This document shows positions 3 to 25,917 of a DNA stretch of 64,000 bases, in pieces (positions within the stretch are counted from its first letter, which is position 1; every line of letters starts with the position of its first letter). The notes under the pieces were generated by a model, which was not told where the DNA came from, did not search any database, and saw only the letters and a program-made list of their open reading frames with translations. The DNA comes from Paenibacillus sp. UNC451MF (GTDB lineage Bacteria > Bacillota > Bacilli > Paenibacillales > NBRC-103111). The stretch is taken from contig NZ_JMLS01000005.1 of the NCBI RefSeq assembly GCF_000686845.1, forward strand, positions 287,672 to 351,671, written 5' to 3'. The position numbers were made by a program, and so were the translations under genes.

Positions 3-1946
3 GAACGAACACAGCGTACGATGTACTGGTTCAGTGGAGCGGGACGCATTCATACTCCGCTGGATGAAGTAGAGGGGAATGTCGATATCTTCAACACCAC
101 CTTGCACGGGATGTTTGCCAGTCTGCTTATCATGGAAGAAACTCCTTACAAAGTACGCGAGCTGACGGCGTTCAAGCTATGGTTAAGCCAATCGCTGCTG
201 CCGGCCAGAGGCCTTCGCGCAGCCTACAAAGTAGATGGCTCTGCGTACCATCATGTAAATCATTATCCTGCTTATGCTGTCGGGGGCTTTCTGGGTGTCA
301 CTCCGGTGATGTACTTTACCAGCGGTACAGAATACCGTATTACGCAAGAGGCACATGAGACGGTCCGTAATGCGCTGCTCGCCATGCGGCTCTATTCGAA
401 CAAGTATGAATGGCTGGTCAGTCTTTCGGCGCGTCATCCTACGGGCAAATGGGCATTAGACATTGAGCCTTTCGAATATATGGCACTATCCGGTACGCCG
501 GACGGGACGAAGGAGATCGACGAGGAGGCTGCCGCCGCTTATTTGCGTCTTCTGAAGCCAGGTGAACCAACTGAAACCGGGGAACTCCTCATGGCGAAGG
601 GAATCAGACCAGAGGCCGATCCAAATGGTCATTGGACGATGAATTATGCTGCGCTAGCCCTTCATCGCAGAGATTCCTGGTTAGCTGGGGTTAGAGGCCA
701 CAGCCGCTACTTGTGGGCTAACGAGACCTATGTGAGCGCGAATCTGTACGGCAGATACATTTCACATGGGCATCTGCAAATTATGAGCCAAGGAGCCCCG
801 ATTAACAACGAAGACAGCGGCTATCATCATGATGGCTGGGACTGGAACCGATGGCCGGGAACGACGACGGTCCACAAGCCTATTGCTGAACTGCGTTCGG
901 ATGTACGCAACGTGGATACGTTTAGCGGGTTCGAGGAGATGCTCATTTCCGATGAAACGTATGCCGGCGGTCTGCACCTTGAAGGGCGCAACGGCATGTT
1001 TGCGATGAAGCTTCACGAGAATCCGAAGTATGAAGGATCGCATCGAGCGAGAAAATCGTTCTTTTTCTTCGATAACCGGATTATATGCCTAGGCAGTGAC
1101 ATTGAAAACGACAATGCTATATACGCGACCCAAACTACGTTGTTTCAAAACCATCTTGCCGATCCAAGTGAATCGATCTATTTGAACTCAGTGGGGTCTA
1201 TTGAAGTATTTCCTTATTCTCGGGATTTGGAATTAGACAACTCCGTATGGATGTTGGATAATAAGGGGAACGGATTTTATATTCCCACTGGTCAGGGCTT
1301 AATGCTATCGAAAGCGGTTCAGCATTCGAAACATCAGTCGACCGATGCTGATACAGAAGGGAACTTTGCAGCCGCGTGGCTCGAACATGGAACAGCTCCG
1401 AAGGGAAGCGGCTACGAATATGCGATGGTTGTCCACACCGATTCCGTGGAGATGGAGCATTTTTACAATGCTATGCTGACACCGGAAAAGGCGGCATATA
1501 CGGTACTGCGCAAAGACCGTTCGGCCCATGCGGTCTACGATAGAACTACCCGAACAACAGCTTACGCACTATTCGAGGCTGATGAAAGCGTAAACATAGG
1601 GCATTTGACTGCCGTCGATACCCCATGCATGGTGATGATTCGCGAAGAGGATGATCAGTTGTTTGTCAGCGCTGTGGATCCAGATCTGCGCTTGTATGAG
1701 GGCATTGAACAGGATCAATACGATGAGCAGGGCAAGCAGGTAGAAGTCAGTTTGTATTCAAGATCATGGGTTCATGCGGAGAGCATTCCGCACACCCTGC
1801 GTATAAAGCTAAAAGGAAGCTGGGCTAAGCAAGCAGAGGACAAGAACATTCGTATCGTCGAGTGCGGGGCAGAAGGCACCGTGATTGAGATGACGTGTAA
1901 GGATGCCATGCCTCTGGAGCTAACGCTTATCAAAGCCATTCATTAA
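3..1946 (+). CDS. Polysaccharide lyase family 8, chondroitin ABC lyase-like (5' truncated by window edge)
   Basis: Secreted-type lyase that would cleave uronic-acid polysaccharides by beta-elimination. The reading frame is open to the first base, so the true N-terminus (signal peptide and start of the alpha/alpha toroid) lies outside the window. Counting from the first internal Met at 21, the catalytic block of the chondroitin ABC lyase type is visible: a His at residue 78, a Tyr at 85 and an Arg at 139 in RHP, followed by the GWDWNRWPGTTT block near 272-283. A beta-sandwich begins with the ARKSFFFFDNRIICLGS signature near 340. It sits just upstream of an AraC sensor and a sugar ABC transporter, which suggests a glycan utilisation locus. 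The exact substrate (chondroitin, hyaluronan, xanthan) cannot be read from sequence. Confidence 0.85.
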   Translation, partial: ERTQRTMYWFSGAGRIHTPLDEVEGNVDIFNTTLHGMFASLLIMEETPYKVRELTAFKLWLSQSLLPARGLRAAYKVDGSAYHHVNHYPAYAVGGFLGVTPVMYFTSGTEYRITQEAHETVRNALLAMRLYSNKYEWLVSLSARHPTGKWALDIEPFEYMALSGTPDGTKEIDEEAAAAYLRLLKPGEPTETGELLMAKGIRPEADPNGHWTMNYAALALHRRDSWLAGVRGHSRYLWANETYVSANLYGRYISHGHLQIMSQGAPINNEDSGYHHDGWDWNRWPGTTTVHKPIAELRSDVRNVDTFSGFEEMLISDETYAGGLHLEGRNGMFAMKLHENPKYEGSHRARKSFFFFDNRIICLGSDIENDNAIYATQTTLFQNHLADPSESIYLNSVGSIEVFPYSRDLELDNSVWMLDNKGNGFYIPTGQGLMLSKAVQHSKHQSTDADTEGNFAAAWLEHGTAPKGSGYEYAMVVHTDSVEMEHFYNAMLTPEKAAYTVLRKDRSAHAVYDRTTRTTAYALFEADESVNIGHLTAVDTPCMVMIREEDDQLFVSAVDPDLRLYEGIEQDQYDEQGKQVEVSLYSRSWVHAESIPHTLRIKLKGSWAKQAEDKNIRIVECGAEGTVIEMTCKDAMPLELTLIKAIH

Positions 1947-19770: not shown

Positions 19771-19875
19771 GTAAATCCACTCCTTGTTGTCTTATCTTTT
19801 GTCTTTAACCATGATACAATGATTTCTGTAATAAATAAAATGAATGTTAATCATAAGGGGTATACCAAAAACGTT

Positions 19876-20751
19876 ATGACTCATTCTCAACTAAAACTAT
19901 TAGTCAAAATTGCTGACACCGGAAGCTTTACAAGAGCAGGTCAAGAACTGAATATGACGCAGCCTGCGGTAAGCCGCGCTATTTCTACGCTGGAGGCCGA
20001 ATTGGGTGTCACCCTCCTTATTCGTGACCGCCGTAAAGGGATTGTACTCACGGAAGTCGGCAAGCGCATCCTTGTTCTTTTCCGTGATATATTGAAAGGC
20101 TTTGATAAGGTCGATCAAGAGGTAGCAGCGGAGAAAGGCTTTGAAGTCGGGTTGATCCGTATCGGTTCTTTTCCAGCAGCTTCAGCACATTTTTTACCTA
20201 AAATTTTTCGCGTCATTGGCGAGAAGTACCCGCGACTCCGATTCGAGCTTCACGAAGGAAGCATCGATGAGATTAAGGAATGGTTAGCGGCGAGAACGAT
20301 CGATGTCGGTTGGATTATTCCGCCGAACGATGAGTTTGAAGCCGTTCCCTTACTCAAAGAACGAATGTCATTATTTTTGCGGGAAGATCACCCTTTGCAA
20401 AGCCTTGACACCATTCATGTCAAACATCTTGATAATGAACCGATGATCATTTGTAAAGGCGGCTATGAAACTCCAATCTATGAGCTGTTCGAACGAGCTG
20501 GCGCTCGGATTCAAGCCAAATTTGTTGTTCACAACGTCAATACGGCTTTAAATATGATTCAAGAAGGTCTTGGGATGGCTATCATGTCCAATGTCTCATT
20601 ATCACTGTCCTCTTTGCCGCCCAACGTGCGAATCCGCTCTCTGGAGCCGCAGCCTTACAGGGAAATTACATTAGCAGTCCCTTCTCTGGAGGAGTCATCG
20701 TTAGCCGTTAAGCTGTTTATTCAAACTGCCAAGGATATCTTTTCCAACTAG
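19876..20751 (+). CDS. LysR-family regulator divergent from the EamA transporter
   Basis: A regulator of about 291 residues. The helix-turn-helix segment reads GSFTRAGQELNMTQPAVSRA and the LysR effector-binding domain follows (IGSFPAASAHFLPKIFRVIG opens it). I chose ATG 19876 because the family normally begins a few residues before the first helix. The preceding AAGGGGT is rather far at about 14 nt, so an upstream start (19819 or 19840) cannot be excluded. It is followed by about 110 nt without a gene and then a terminator. Confidence 0.8.
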   Translation: MTHSQLKLLVKIADTGSFTRAGQELNMTQPAVSRAISTLEAELGVTLLIRDRRKGIVLTEVGKRILVLFRDILKGFDKVDQEVAAEKGFEVGLIRIGSFPAASAHFLPKIFRVIGEKYPRLRFELHEGSIDEIKEWLAARTIDVGWIIPPNDEFEAVPLLKERMSLFLREDHPLQSLDTIHVKHLDNEPMIICKGGYETPIYELFERAGARIQAKFVVHNVNTALNMIQEGLGMAIMSNVSLSLSSLPPNVRIRSLEPQPYREITLAVPSLEESSLAVKLFIQTAKDIFSN

Positions 20752-20859: not shown

Positions 20860-20902
20860 AAGCCGCTTTGTTCTCTCAATGAGGGAACGAAGCGGCTTTT
20901 TT
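20860..20902 (+). terminator. Intrinsic terminator upstream of the Fur-box operon
   Basis: AAGCCGCTT with an inner GTTCTCTCAATGAGGGAAC hairpin pairs with AAGCGGCTTTTTT. The rest of 20752-21079 holds this terminator, the Fur box and an AT-rich promoter region; no gene is seen. Confidence 0.92.
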
Positions 20903-21002: not shown

Positions 21003-21079
21003 TAAAATGGGAAAAGCTATAACATAAAGATATGATAATTGTTCTCAGTTATAAAATCAAACCGTTGGGGGATAAGCCA

Positions 21080-22087
21080 ATGCTTTATCTCAATGAATCG
21101 GATGTCGCCGCTAGTGGAGGGCATGATTGGATAGCTGCGTTGGAGGATGTAAGGAGAGCTTTCCAGTGCCATGCCCGAGAAGATAGCGTGCTTCCTCCCA
21201 AGGTGACGCTGCCGATTCCGTATGCAGAGAAAATAGGGCCCTCCTCAGGGCCTCTTCCGCATTATGTGGCGATGCCCGCCTATTTGGGCGGTAACATCCC
21301 TTATGCCGGCTTTAAATGGGTCAGTGTAGGACATCCGTATCAGGTGGATCAACCTGATATTACAGCTGTTATCGTAATCCAATCCCCGGATTCCGGATAT
21401 CCGGCTGCAATAATGGACGGTACGCTGATTACGGCCATCCGCACGGCTGCTGTAACGGCTGTAGCCGCGCAGGAGCTGGCGCCACCGTACGCAGAGGTGC
21501 TTGGGATTATTGGAGCCGGAGCACAGGGAGCCATGCACCTGCGGCTGCTTCCACAGGTTTTGCCGAAGCTTAAGCAAATTCGTCTCTACAATCGGAGCAG
21601 GAGTAAAGCTGAGGAGCTGGCCTCTAGAATGAAGAATGAGGTCAAAGCGGAAATTGTAGTGACTGGGCAAGCTCAAGAGGCGGTCGTAGAATCGGATATT
21701 TTGGTGACCGCTACGTCTTCCTCAGGAGAGCCGATCGTGCATGGGGAATGGCTGAAGGAAGGAGTTTTGTACGTGCAGGTGGGCAGGCATGAAATTGCCT
21801 TCGAAGCCGTACGGCAGTTCGACAAAATCCTTGTCGATGATTGGGAGCAAATCCGACATAGAGGAGTGCAGACGTTGGCTTTAATGGAGCAGGAGGGGGA
21901 GTGGCGCTGCTCTTGCCTTCATGGCACGCTTGGCCAGCGGCTGTTAGGGAGGATTGTCGGGCGTGAGTCCGCTTCCGAACGGATTATGTTTAGCAGCATT
22001 GGCTTAGGTGTGACGGATCTCGCTATAGCAGCCCGAATTTATGAGCAAGCGACGGCTCGAGGCATCGGACAATGGCTAGCCAGATAA
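21080..22087 (+). CDS. Ornithine cyclodeaminase / mu-crystallin family NAD(P)-dependent enzyme
   Basis: A 335-residue protein of the OCD family, whose members include ornithine cyclodeaminase, alanine and ketimine reductases, and SbnB, which makes a siderophore precursor. A Rossmann nucleotide-binding motif GIIGAGAQGAMHL is near residues 135-147, and the N-terminal half carries the substrate region with ITAIRTAAVTAVAAQEL near 116-133. I chose ATG 21080 because GGGGGAT (21067-21072) is 7 nt upstream. It is first gene behind the Fur box, with 24 nt to the PLP enzyme. Under iron control, an imine-reductase role in building a small amino-acid product is more plausible than arginine catabolism, but that is inference. 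Confidence 0.83.
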   Translation: MLYLNESDVAASGGHDWIAALEDVRRAFQCHAREDSVLPPKVTLPIPYAEKIGPSSGPLPHYVAMPAYLGGNIPYAGFKWVSVGHPYQVDQPDITAVIVIQSPDSGYPAAIMDGTLITAIRTAAVTAVAAQELAPPYAEVLGIIGAGAQGAMHLRLLPQVLPKLKQIRLYNRSRSKAEELASRMKNEVKAEIVVTGQAQEAVVESDILVTATSSSGEPIVHGEWLKEGVLYVQVGRHEIAFEAVRQFDKILVDDWEQIRHRGVQTLALMEQEGEWRCSCLHGTLGQRLLGRIVGRESASERIMFSSIGLGVTDLAIAARIYEQATARGIGQWLAR

Positions 22088-22111: not shown

Positions 22112-23344
22112 ATGCTAGGGAAAGAACAACCATCGGCTGAGCCGAGAAGGTTTCATACGGACATCGTGCATGCAGGTGAAGAGACACGTAACCTTTACGG
22201 CAGTGTAACGACTCCGATTGTGCAGACCGTCAATTTTTATTTTGAAAGCACGGCTGAGCTGGAGGCATTTTATAGAGAGAAGCATGGATTAAACGATTTG
22301 GAAAAGGAAAGATATCCACGGTTCAAATATGGCCGAACGGGGAATCCGACCCAGCAGACCGTGGAGAAAAAGCTGGCCGCACTGGAGGGAGGCGAGGCGG
22401 CCTTATTGACCTCAAGCGGCATGAGTGCCGTCAGCACGGCGCTGCTCGACCTGCTATCTGCAGGCGATCATCTGGTGATGGTCGGTGATCCGTATTTTCA
22501 TATCAAAGAATTCGTCGATCGTTATTTAACGAAATGGAATATTACATCTACCTATGTGCCGATGAATGATTTCACGGCATTGGAACAGGCGATTCAGCCT
22601 AACACTAGGATCGTATTTGCAGAAACGCCGACGAACCCGCATATGCGGGTAATGGATATGAAAAAGGCAGTTCAGCTGTGTCGGGAAAAGGGGTTGTATT
22701 TCATCGTCGACAGCACCTTTGCCACACCATACAATCTTCGTCCCCTGGAGTATGGAGCCGATCTCGTTATTCATAGTGCGACGAAATTTATTAGTGGTCA
22801 TAACGATGTCATTGCGGGAGTATTGATCGGGCGGGCTAGTGATATTCACCGCATGCGAGACAGTCTTGAAATTATGGGCGGTACCATTCAACCGATGATG
22901 GCCTACTGGGTTACTCGAGGTCTCAAGACGCTGGGGCTTCGAATGGAGAGGCACAATGCGACGGCGCTGCGAGTGGCTCAATTTTTGGATGCACATCCCA
23001 AGGTACGCAAGGTGTATTATCCCGGCCTTCCTTCCCATCCGGATTATGCGATCGCTCTATCGCAAATGAGAGGATACGGTGGCGTTGTCACGTTTGAGGT
23101 AGATCATCTGGAACAAGCGAGACAAGTGGTTGACGCGATGCGGATTCCTCGGCTCGCTAGCAGCTTGGGGGGCGTGGAAAGTTTGATCAGCGTAACGGCG
23201 ATGAGCGCGATGGCCTACTTCTTCATGACACAGGAAGAACGGATGGAGCGGGCTATTCCCGATGGGATGATTCGTTTCTCTATCGGTATTGAAGACCCCG
23301 ACGATATTATAGCCGATTTGGCGCAGGCGCTGGATAAGCTTTGA
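22112..23344 (+). CDS. Cys/Met-metabolism PLP enzyme (cystathionine gamma-synthase/lyase type)
   Basis: A 410-residue fold-type I PLP enzyme. The PLP lysine is K225 in HSATKFISGHNDVIAG. The cofactor-binding blocks TSSGMSAVSTALLDLL (near 108) and FAETPTNP (near 170), and the YGRTGNPTQQTVEKKLAALE block (near 73-92), are typical. The family catalyses gamma- or beta-replacement and elimination on amino acids such as O-acyl-homoserine. It sits second in the Fur-box operon with no methionine-pathway gene nearby. A role forming a C-N or C-S bond in a non-protein amino acid is possible. No T-box or S-box precedes the operon, which argues against routine methionine synthesis. Confidence 0.83.
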   Translation: MLGKEQPSAEPRRFHTDIVHAGEETRNLYGSVTTPIVQTVNFYFESTAELEAFYREKHGLNDLEKERYPRFKYGRTGNPTQQTVEKKLAALEGGEAALLTSSGMSAVSTALLDLLSAGDHLVMVGDPYFHIKEFVDRYLTKWNITSTYVPMNDFTALEQAIQPNTRIVFAETPTNPHMRVMDMKKAVQLCREKGLYFIVDSTFATPYNLRPLEYGADLVIHSATKFISGHNDVIAGVLIGRASDIHRMRDSLEIMGGTIQPMMAYWVTRGLKTLGLRMERHNATALRVAQFLDAHPKVRKVYYPGLPSHPDYAIALSQMRGYGGVVTFEVDHLEQARQVVDAMRIPRLASSLGGVESLISVTAMSAMAYFFMTQEERMERAIPDGMIRFSIGIEDPDDIIADLAQALDKL

Positions 23345-23391: not shown

Positions 23392-23856
23392 ATGATGGAA
23401 AAGGGACAAGATCCTTACACACGCGGACTGATCAATTTCGACCCGTTCGTTGAGAGAAGGCGGATGATCGGTGAGGTGGTCGCCGTTTTAGAGGGGCGGC
23501 TGAGCAACAGGGGGCTTGCCTTGATTCATGCCCGTTCAAGAGCATGCCGGAAGCACGATATCCATGAGCTGATCTTGACGGCTGATCCCGAGGCGAAGCC
23601 TGGAGTGCAGGTGGATCAGATCGCTTATTTGGCTTTTTTTGAAGTGACGCGGGGAGCCGTGATCGTTGCCGGGGACCGAATAAGGATAGGAGACCGATGG
23701 AGCGGTACGGTCGTCGGCTTCGATGAAACGCATGTGCCTAACCATATTAATATTGTAGTAGCTGGAGAAGAAGTGACCGGACGGGAAGCGGGCTTAGGGG
23801 TAGGAGACGCGGTTCATATTATACCAGAAGGTGATGAAGATGAACTCAGCTCATGA
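23392..23856 (+). CDS. Conserved-looking 154-aa protein in the B12-mutase operon (function unknown)
   Basis: I do not recognise a named domain with confidence; it may belong to a DUF seen beside cobalamin mutases. The protein is soluble with no signal peptide or membrane segment. The C-terminal half (about 95-150) has the alternating beta-strand and Gly pattern of a small barrel (GDRIRIGDRWSGTVVGFDE, then PNHINIVVAGEEVTG). The N-terminal half has an Arg-rich stretch (HARSRACRKHDIHELI). A good ribosome site (GGGAGG) precedes the ATG pair at 23392/23395. Its end overlaps the next gene by 17 nt, so it is co-translated with the mutase genes and may be an accessory or chaperone subunit. Confidence 0.7.
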   Translation: MMEKGQDPYTRGLINFDPFVERRRMIGEVVAVLEGRLSNRGLALIHARSRACRKHDIHELILTADPEAKPGVQVDQIAYLAFFEVTRGAVIVAGDRIRIGDRWSGTVVGFDETHVPNHINIVVAGEEVTGREAGLGVGDAVHIIPEGDEDELSS

Positions 23857-24088
23857 AGCATTGGAGAGAGTCGTTGATGCCATTGATATCGAGACGTTTA
23901 TGATATGCGGCAGTGAGCAGGAGGCAGGGCAGCTTATGCTGGAGCTGCTGAATCAAATGGGCTTTCCAAACGGGGACGTGGTGTTTGTTCAGCATGAGGG
24001 GCCAGGTGCCCGGGTGAGGGGCCGTGCTTATGTCCATACCCCTGAAGAAGCTCCTCTGCAGATGCTATTGAAGGCGGGAGAAAGATGA
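23840..24088 (+). CDS. 82-aa small protein preceding the B12 mutase (function unknown)
   Basis: A small acidic protein (HEALERVVDAIDIETFMICG at the start, ending near APLQMLLKAGER) with no recognised domain. ATG 23840 is chosen because AGAAGG (23826-23831) is 8 nt upstream; GTG 23831 and ATG 23834 sit on or against that site. It overlaps the upstream gene by 17 nt. Its stop overlaps the mutase start in an ATGA arrangement, so the three are translationally coupled. Its size recalls the small subunits of B12 aminomutases (OraS), but I see no sequence similarity to them. Confidence 0.68.
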   Translation: MNSAHEALERVVDAIDIETFMICGSEQEAGQLMLELLNQMGFPNGDVVFVQHEGPGARVRGRAYVHTPEEAPLQMLLKAGER

Positions 24089-25917
24089 GTGTGCAGCGAA
24101 TATTGCTTGTTCCGCTCGATCCTGTACATGATGTCGGCATCAAGCTGATCCGCAATGGACTTGCGGAAGCAGGGCATGAGACGACGCTTCTGCCCCCTGA
24201 CCTGACCGTAGATGAGGTTATCGAACGGGCTTTGCAGGGAGATTATGACTGCATATTGCTCAGCCGGACGATGGGCTACGGGGTGATGGAGCTGCTTGCG
24301 CGGTTCATCGAGCTTATCAAGTCGGCAGGAATTAGAGACCGCGTCAAGCTCGGTGTCGGGGGCATGGCGATTCGGCCAGAAGTTGTCGATCCGCTAGGCT
24401 TTAATGGAAGCTTTGGCCCGGGAACAACGGTAGAGGAGGCCGTTGCCTTCGTAGAGGATAGGCCTGTTAACGAGGCGGTGTCGGGAGCTGTACGGCGGAA
24501 CAAGCCCCAATTGACTGCTGGATTTTCGTACCGCTATGGAGAGAATCGAATGGGCAGCTTGCTCGACGGCATTGCACGCGAGGCGGTTGACTGGGCTGCG
24601 TGCCGTACAACGGCCGCTCTGCAGAGGGCACAGCTTCGCCAGTCCGCCTTCCGGCAGGGAGATCCTGCCGATGGGTTTCGGCTGAGCGGCTCGGCAAAAC
24701 GCGAATATGCTATGCGCTGCTCGCAGGATATTCGCGATTACTATGCTGCCGGCCATCTGCCCGAACGGGTGCGGCGCATTCGCACCTCCCGATTGGAGGA
24801 GGCTGTTTCATTCTGCTTGGCCTCGGCAGGAGGCAAGCAGAGTGTCACGCTGCACCATCAGGGTGCGAAGCCGGTAGTCCTCGTACAATACGGGACCGGA
24901 TCGCCGCTGATGGATATTACTCATCTCAAGGTGGCGGAGGCTTGGGGGGCGGAAGGTGTCATTCATTTCGATCCGGCTTGGGGAGCGCGGTCGGAGGGGC
25001 TGCTCGAGGGCTGCTTATCGTTCCAAGGGGATGGTACGGTCATTACACCGGATAACATTCGGCTGCTTCGTTCCGCCCTATTACCGGAGACCTTGTTCCA
25101 GGTAAGGGCGCACCGCGGTCTTAACACGCCCGAGACAGTGGTCATAGCCGGAGAAGCGGGTGCAGACCTAACCAAGATCAATATTGCCTATGGCTCACTT
25201 GGCGGAGGTACTGATCCTGAGCGGTTGACAGTCGACGGCATTGCTGCCATGACCTATGCCGCTCAGTACGGGTTGCCTTATGACATTGTAACCAATGAGG
25301 AGCTGTGCGGCGTGCCGGCTTACAAAGCATTCGCAGGAATGCTTATCGGCTGTGCATTAGGGAGACTGACCGGAGGCTCTCCGATTCTTCAACCCTTGTT
25401 CTGCCATTCTCCAGAAGCAATGCTTAAGGGGAGAATGAGCGATAATTACATCGATTTCAACGCCGCCAAAATTCAGGCGCTGCGGTGCATCATCGACGCG
25501 CCGATCTGGCCGGGAGCCCCGTTAGGCTTCATGACCCATACCGAGGATCGGGTGCAATCATCGGTCACTACCTCGCTGCATGCCGCGCTGGCTGCATCGC
25601 TACAGGTCGACGCGATGACGATCGCCTCGAGTGACGAAGCATATTCCGGCGGTACGATCTCCGCTCAAGCGAGAGTAGACACGCTTCGCGGAGTGAAGGA
25701 AGCGCTCCGCTTCCTGGGGCATGGGCATATAGCACCGACAGCAGCGGCTCAAGGGATGTCCGAGCAGCTGATCGAGCAGATCGAGCGCGTGCTTGAGCAG
25801 GTGCGGTCGATCGGCTTTGTCGATTCGCTATATCGCGGTGTGCTGGGAAGCACGGAGGAGGGGGCTTATCCGGGCAGAGCGGGGAAAGGGTCGGTAGAGA
25901 CTGCCATCCATTACTAG
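24085..25917 (+). CDS. Fused adenosylcobalamin-dependent mutase, KamE-KamD-like (lysine 5,6-aminomutase superfamily)
   Basis: A 610-residue protein. Residues 1-125 form a B12-binding Rossmann domain that parallels KamE: DPVHDVGIKLIRN (12-24), ILLSRTMG (57-64), ELIKSAGIRDRVKLGVGG (76-93) and GFNGSFGPG (105-113). From about 260 a TIM-barrel-like region parallels KamD: VLVQYGTGSPLMDITHL, a GDGTVITPDNIRLLRSAL block, and GFMTHTEDR near 490. The order B12 domain then barrel is the reverse of OraE. The axial-ligand candidate is His15, but the motif Asp is three rather than two residues before it. The position matching the KamE PLP lysine (His+11) is Leu26. It is last in the Fur-box operon. The exact reaction is unknown. 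Confidence 0.78.
   Translation: MSVQRILLVPLDPVHDVGIKLIRNGLAEAGHETTLLPPDLTVDEVIERALQGDYDCILLSRTMGYGVMELLARFIELIKSAGIRDRVKLGVGGMAIRPEVVDPLGFNGSFGPGTTVEEAVAFVEDRPVNEAVSGAVRRNKPQLTAGFSYRYGENRMGSLLDGIAREAVDWAACRTTAALQRAQLRQSAFRQGDPADGFRLSGSAKREYAMRCSQDIRDYYAAGHLPERVRRIRTSRLEEAVSFCLASAGGKQSVTLHHQGAKPVVLVQYGTGSPLMDITHLKVAEAWGAEGVIHFDPAWGARSEGLLEGCLSFQGDGTVITPDNIRLLRSALLPETLFQVRAHRGLNTPETVVIAGEAGADLTKINIAYGSLGGGTDPERLTVDGIAAMTYAAQYGLPYDIVTNEELCGVPAYKAFAGMLIGCALGRLTGGSPILQPLFCHSPEAMLKGRMSDNYIDFNAAKIQALRCIIDAPIWPGAPLGFMTHTEDRVQSSVTTSLHAALAASLQVDAMTIASSDEAYSGGTISAQARVDTLRGVKEALRFLGHGHIAPTAAAQGMSEQLIEQIERVLEQVRSIGFVDSLYRGVLGSTEEGAYPGRAGKGSVETAIHY

Follow-up and report, generated by a model that had tools for sequence, protein, structure and literature searches.

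A domain-permuted, two-gene adenosylcobalamin mutase of the lysine/ornithine aminomutase superfamily with an apparently much reduced PLP site

The window analysed here, a 64,000-nucleotide stretch of the genome of Paenibacillus sp. UNC451MF, encodes a fused mutase which is a real, conserved and uncharacterised variant of the aminomutase superfamily. The reading that best accounts for the data as a whole, to which we assign a probability of roughly 0.6, is that this protein and the product of a small gene overlapping its start constitute a two-protein, permuted adenosylcobalamin (AdoCbl) mutase that operates without PLP in amino-acid catabolism. The genes and domains concerned are collected in Table 1.

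Table 1. Features of the mutase operon and its surroundings; nucleotide positions are those of the window, residue positions those of the mutase.
Feature	Position	Strand	Evidence
LysR-family regulator	19819..20751	+	domain and family search
Terminator-like stem, 18 pairs, then T run	20860..20898	+	consensus scan only
Ornithine cyclodeaminase/mu-crystallin oxidoreductase (OCD), first operon gene	21032..22087	+	nearest SbnB (PDB 4m54)
Cys/Met-metabolism fold-type I PLP lyase/synthase	22112..23344	+	Pfam/NCBIfam, neighbourhoods
DUF6917 protein (PF21891), conserved operon partner	23392..23856	+	143 bits
Small gene, OAM_dimer-type dimerisation domain	23834..24088	+	Foldseek, VIA, hhalign, PF16554, dN/dS
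Fused AdoCbl mutase, 610 aa	24085..25917	+	domain search, profile, model, 79 full-length family members including window
Mutase domain 1, B12-binding Rossmann domain	residues 1-127		
Mutase domain 2, OraS/KamD-N-like helical segment	residues about 150-250		
Mutase domain 3, KamD-like TIM barrel	residues about 258-610		

The mutase gene is an intact reading frame of 610 codons, present as one copy in the 7.5-Mb genome, and its dN/dS of 0.084 against the nearest ortholog (genome G099) places it under purifying selection. Pfam finds PF02310 alone (residues 13-120, 46 bits), whilst NCBIfam gives sub-threshold matches to KamE (35 bits, cut-off 280), OraE (26 bits, cut-off 800) and methylmalonyl-CoA mutase; no Pfam or NCBIfam model was found that covers the protein beyond the generic B12-binding domain. 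In a phmmer search of the PDB the best named relatives of the N-terminus were KamE (8t0v_C, 1xrs_B) and OraE (3kow), and the KamD barrel was reached at E 0.096 only. The original prediction, made from the sequence alone, had placed a KamE-like B12 subunit at residues 1-125 and a barrel subunit from about residue 260, with the cobalamin domain in reversed order relative to OraE, where it is C-terminal (599-715 of 733); this arrangement holds, with KamD the closest match to the barrel by both profile and structure. The proposal of a separate branch of the superfamily likewise stands, the barrel being nearer to KamD than to GlmE and no characterised model claiming the protein.

An AlphaFold2 model of the mutase built on 79 sequences (mean pLDDT 91.8, pTM 0.88) gave KamD as the top Foldseek match, followed by OraE and GlmE. 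VIA-align superposed model residues 150-610 on KamD residues 9-504 (1xrs_A; Z 34.7, rmsd 3.7, 397 residues), with Z 28.6 for GlmE and Z 27.5 for OraE, the latter over residues 236-608. An hhalign comparison with nine KamD sequences matched residues 157-609 to KamD 17-505 in a single alignment (E 2.7e-5), so that the segment at about residues 130-250, which had initially been said to match neither subunit, is for the most part the KamD N-terminus, equivalent to OraS; a stretch at about residues 128-150 is the sole plain linker. The OraS model PF16552 (OAM_alpha) weakly matches the same segment (E below 1) in 10 of the 79 full-length sequences, window protein included, that make up the family alignment, and the family consensus KTSPGVERA is the counterpart of TTTTVERTV in KamD and TSPSIERSV in OraS. 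PF02310 is present in all 79 members and Lys-AminoMut_A (PF09043) reaches E<1 in 13, the window protein itself falling below Pfam reporting. We regard membership of the lysine/ornithine aminomutase superfamily as almost certain.

With GlmE among the best folds, and arginines and H/R pairs at similar strand ends, the protein might instead be a fused glutamate mutase (GlmS plus GlmE) acting on glutamate, and the GlmE barrel model PF06368 is touched by four of the 79 members (best E 0.099), the window protein not among them. The profile comparison, however, gives E 0.14 for GlmE against the KamD value above, which sets GlmE aside as the nearest relative. The window protein scores 16-20 bits where the GlmS cut-offs are 110-136, the OraS-like segment and a separate OAM_dimer protein are aminomutase features, and methylaspartase is absent among the identified neighbouring genes. 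A glutamate mutase is a very improbable identity for this enzyme.

The enzyme is not the single chain first envisaged. The small gene, whose stop shares a 4-nt overlap with the start of the mutase, encodes 84 residues from the ATG at 23834 or 82 residues from the ATG at 23840, the latter having the better Shine-Dalgarno sequence, and has a dN/dS of 0.078. For the model of its product (pLDDT 87.5) the top five PDB matches in Foldseek are OraE and KamE chains; VIA scores are Z 8.4 to 8t0v_D and Z 8.0 to 1xrs_B (rmsd 1.5, 51 residues), with the next unrelated structure at 6.1, and hhalign against KamE gives E 6e-6. PF16554 (OAM_dimer), the dimerisation domain also carried by KamE and OraE, has E below 1 in 21 of 51 small-protein members (best 8.7e-5). 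The small protein is the dimerisation domain of KamE/OraE as the product of a separate, adjacent gene, which makes the enzyme two-chained; the two proteins would together form one AdoCbl-dependent radical mutase. Of 80 loci, 75 have a detected homolog of the small gene immediately before the mutase and three more have one that precedes it at a distance of about 0.9 kb, such that the two genes occur together in 78 of the 79 testable loci; of the other two loci, one has a mutase truncated by a contig end and falls outside the testable set, and the other is highly divergent. In the three spaced loci, one from Bacteroidota (L084) and two from Ignavibacteriota (L090, L092), a gene of ~305 aa, which looks CorA-like by eye, occupies the 0.9 kb between small subunit and mutase.

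Judged by sequence and model, the domain set corresponds to a circular permutation of OraS-OraE, written as [dimer] + [B12 - OraS-like - barrel], and a permuted architecture with a separate dimerisation domain is very probable. KamDE (PDB 1xrs, 8t0v, 9q1a) shares with it the KamD N-terminal segment and barrel (over residues 150-610), the KamE-like B12 and dimerisation domains and, beside most relatives, a KamB-type reactivase; in KamDE, however, KamE is a dimer-B12 chain and KamD is separate, whereas here the B12 domain precedes the KamD part and the dimerisation domain stands alone. D-ornithine 4,5-aminomutase, OraSE (PDB 3kow, 3kp1), also combines a large chain bearing barrel and B12 domain with a separate small subunit, and has the OraS-like motif (S/T)PxxER, but OraE runs barrel-dimer-B12 with OraS as the small chain, while in the present enzyme the small chain is the dimerisation domain and the OraS part lies inside the large one. 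Glutamate mutase, GlmES (PDB 1cb7, 6h9e), is likewise an AdoCbl barrel mutase without PLP, with a comparable ribose-contact glutamate and Arg/His residues at strand ends, but it has neither the OraS-like nor the dimerisation domain and its sequence relation is insignificant. The fused isobutyryl-CoA mutase IcmF (PDB 4xc6) resembles the mutase in carrying a B12 domain N-terminal to the catalytic barrel in one chain; unlike it, IcmF is a CoA-ester mutase with a G-protein domain in between, an insert unrelated to the segment found here.

The cobalamin site is retained. In the DxHxxG-type motif of the PF02310 domain, spaced D12-x-x-H15-x-x-G18, the Asp and His occur in 79/79 members and the Gly in 73/79, whilst the ribose-contact glutamate, E518, aligns with KamD E412, OraE E338 (E333 in the aligned sequence) and GlmE E330. 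The residues invariant in all 79 sequences include H15, R302, R341, H343, R344, Y369, R380 and E518; K364 is also invariant.

The PLP site, by comparison with KamDE, appears to have been largely dismantled, a feature which the first reading missed and which makes 'aminomutase' doubtful as a name for the function. The position of the lysine that forms the PLP aldimine (KamE K144, OraE K629) is deleted, seen as a four-residue gap in the OraE alignments, and L26, a leucine in 77/79 members, lies at the distance of K144 from the His ligand. The side-chain contacts to PLP reported for 5,6-LAM are R184, S189, Y236, S238, Y263, R268 and N299 (PMC3958899). Mapped by two alignments, at about 15-17% identity, R184, S189, Y236, S238 and R268 correspond to D296, A301, A342, R344 and G/A374, respectively; the stacking tyrosine Y263 is kept as Y369, and N299 falls ambiguously on E405 or, with a one-residue shift, on N404, which is conserved in 78/79. 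One, perhaps two, of eight contacts are therefore left, and the PLP-linking lysine and most PLP-binding side chains seem, on alignment evidence, to be lost. With the defining lysine absent, placing the mutase among the PLP-dependent aminomutases is not warranted, and it probably works without PLP.

It is conceivable that the enzyme is still a PLP- and B12-dependent 1,2-aminomutase of the lysine/ornithine type, acting on another diamino acid, with PLP held by a different lysine such as K364 and a remodelled phosphate site. KamD/KamE is the nearest family, Y369, K364 and N404 are conserved as described, and a KamB-type reactivase occurs in most operons. Against this reading, which we consider unlikely, stand the deleted K144/K629 site, the replacement of the phosphate ligands Arg184, Ser189 and Arg268 by D296, A301 and G/A374, and that of Ser238 by R344.

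In glutamate mutase an arginine 'claw' of GlmE holds the substrate carboxylate(s). R302, R341, H343 and R344 of the mutase sit at barrel strand ends and, in the preferred PLP-free reading, could hold the carboxylate(s) of the substrate in a similar way; the proposed mimicry of the GlmE claw is by analogy and depends on register, as in the alignment GlmE R149 is matched by H343 instead of R341, and GlmE R100 is not matched by R302. The mutase would generate the 5'-deoxyadenosyl radical, abstract a substrate hydrogen inside the barrel and convert an amino acid by a 1,2-rearrangement of the carbon-skeleton or another PLP-free type, the product of which would then be handled by the PLP lyase and the amino-acid oxidoreductase of the operon. 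That a PLP-independent class of AdoCbl mutase has arisen inside the PLP/B12 aminomutase branch, linking carbon-skeleton mutases to aminomutases, is a tentative and rather doubtful extension of this scheme. Few reactions of AdoCbl mutases have, to our knowledge, been described. The permutation, the split-off dimerisation domain and the apparent loss of PLP amount to a natural experiment on the need of aminomutases for PLP and for a covalent tether driving the motion of the B12 domain, and how glutamate mutase and the aminomutases are related in evolution becomes directly testable.

In the window the genes run OCD, Cys/Met PLP enzyme, DUF6917, small subunit and mutase, closely spaced or overlapping. 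The terminator-like stem sets the operon apart from the LysR gene upstream; from its position, the LysR protein may possibly regulate the operon. Of 81 neighbourhoods, window included, 43 have DUF6917 beside the mutase; a candidate relationship of DUF6917 to OrtA gave no signal. The KamB reactivase adjoins the mutase in 64 loci (representative 229 bits, NCBIfam cut-off 210) and in none of the Paenibacillus mutase loci; a KamB search of Paenibacillaceae genomes gave no match, and neither did the control genomes, which makes the absence of KamB from these genomes a provisional result. Neighbours in other phyla are PLP488 (51 loci), RidA (18), and an FAD oxidoreductase (34) or diaminopimelate dehydrogenase (DAPDH; 14); the Cys/Met PLP enzyme takes the place of PLP488 in the present lineage. 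PLP488 is a conserved fold-type I PLP-like family of ~488 aa with no significant Pfam match (L033:2196-3659 and homologs), and co-occurs with DUF6917 and RidA. A membrane transporter of ~460 aa without Pfam or NCBIfam match and often encoded in these operons, Transp8 (L057_4 and 16 other loci), is probably the substrate importer. The genome of the window has a cobalamin adenosyltransferase and two further B12-binding-domain proteins. No cobalamin riboswitch reached the gathering threshold near the mutase in the window or in four further loci. Elsewhere in the window, a T-box leader (RF00230, 38347-38620, +) and a SAM riboswitch (RF00162, 39824-39938, +) score above theirs.

The amino-acid enzymes of the operons (PLP enzymes, RidA, OCD, DAPDH and FAD oxidoreductase) bear on the substrate, and for the catabolism of an acidic or diamino acid we judge the chances to be about even. 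In Paenibacillaceae the pathway could instead be biosynthetic, making a siderophore or natural-product building block: SbnB is the best match of the OCD, this lineage has substitutes for KamB and PLP488 or lacks them, and the distribution there is rare and patchy. Orthologous operons elsewhere, however, carry a transporter, RidA, FAD oxidoreductase and reactivase, as is typical of amino-acid breakdown, and no NRPS gene was seen in the annotated 19-27 kb part of the window, leaving a biosynthetic role distinctly improbable.

For the catabolic reading, the best available guess at the substrate, and a weak one, is a diaminopimelate-like amino acid, suggested by neighbouring genes and, specifically, by the DAPDH copies as its whole basis. 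In nine genomes with this arrangement, the operon DAPDH is the sole copy above cut-off; DapF is encoded elsewhere in seven of the nine, and the Atribacteria genome has a second DapF inside the operon besides one elsewhere. DAPDH is dispensable for lysine synthesis where DapF works, so the operon copies may be catabolic. The guess is weaker for Paenibacillaceae, since OCD stands there in place of DAPDH. If it is correct, the operons would represent an undescribed, multi-phylum pathway that degrades a diaminopimelate-type amino acid by radical rearrangement. We found no literature linking the architecture, DUF6917 or DAPDH to an AdoCbl aminomutase, with subscription journals outside the coverage of the search.

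The scan for relatives covered 84,980 species genomes and yielded 92; 80 of these were retrieved, and 78 proved full length, with identities of 43-88%. The fused family, with at least 80 loci, spans Bacillota (mostly Clostridia and Fermentithermobacillaceae), Atribacterota, Thermotogota, Bacteroidota/Ignavibacteriota and Omnitrophota (one). Its breadth among anaerobes, its conserved operon and the lack of a family model point towards an amino-acid pathway yet to be assigned. Named orthologs sharing 88% and 66% identity belong to Paenibacillus; a full-length mutase gene occurs in three other Paenibacillaceae genomes, and the three Paenibacillaceae rows of the tree form one clade among the Bacillota rows. 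In a sample of 300 genomes of the class, the window's own genome was the only one with the mutase, indicating a patchy presence in Paenibacillaceae. In a sister species (G101), the first part of the OCD gene and two mutase scraps remain; the deletion scar (L005, G101 C5:163241-166342, reverse complement 1310-1572) joins the OCD start to the mutase fragments. The joint loss of the intervening genes fits a dispensable catabolic unit. A plasmid search gave no match.

In Desulfosporosinus sp. BG the operon is present twice, the two copies neighbouring each other on a single contig (NZ_MASS01000050.1; L040, L042). A candidate barrel homolog in another genome (L025 in G073) was a 45-aa chance match within a membrane protein. 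Matches to PF06368 in ~600-aa reading frames of other genomes proved to belong to a different fused family, in which a protein of ~593 aa (L201:3356-5134, +) combines an N-terminal B12-binding domain with a barrel weakly similar to GlmE; the latter scores 25.5 bits against glutamate mutase E (cut-off 26.6), and similar matches occur in G351 and G389, all within one genus.
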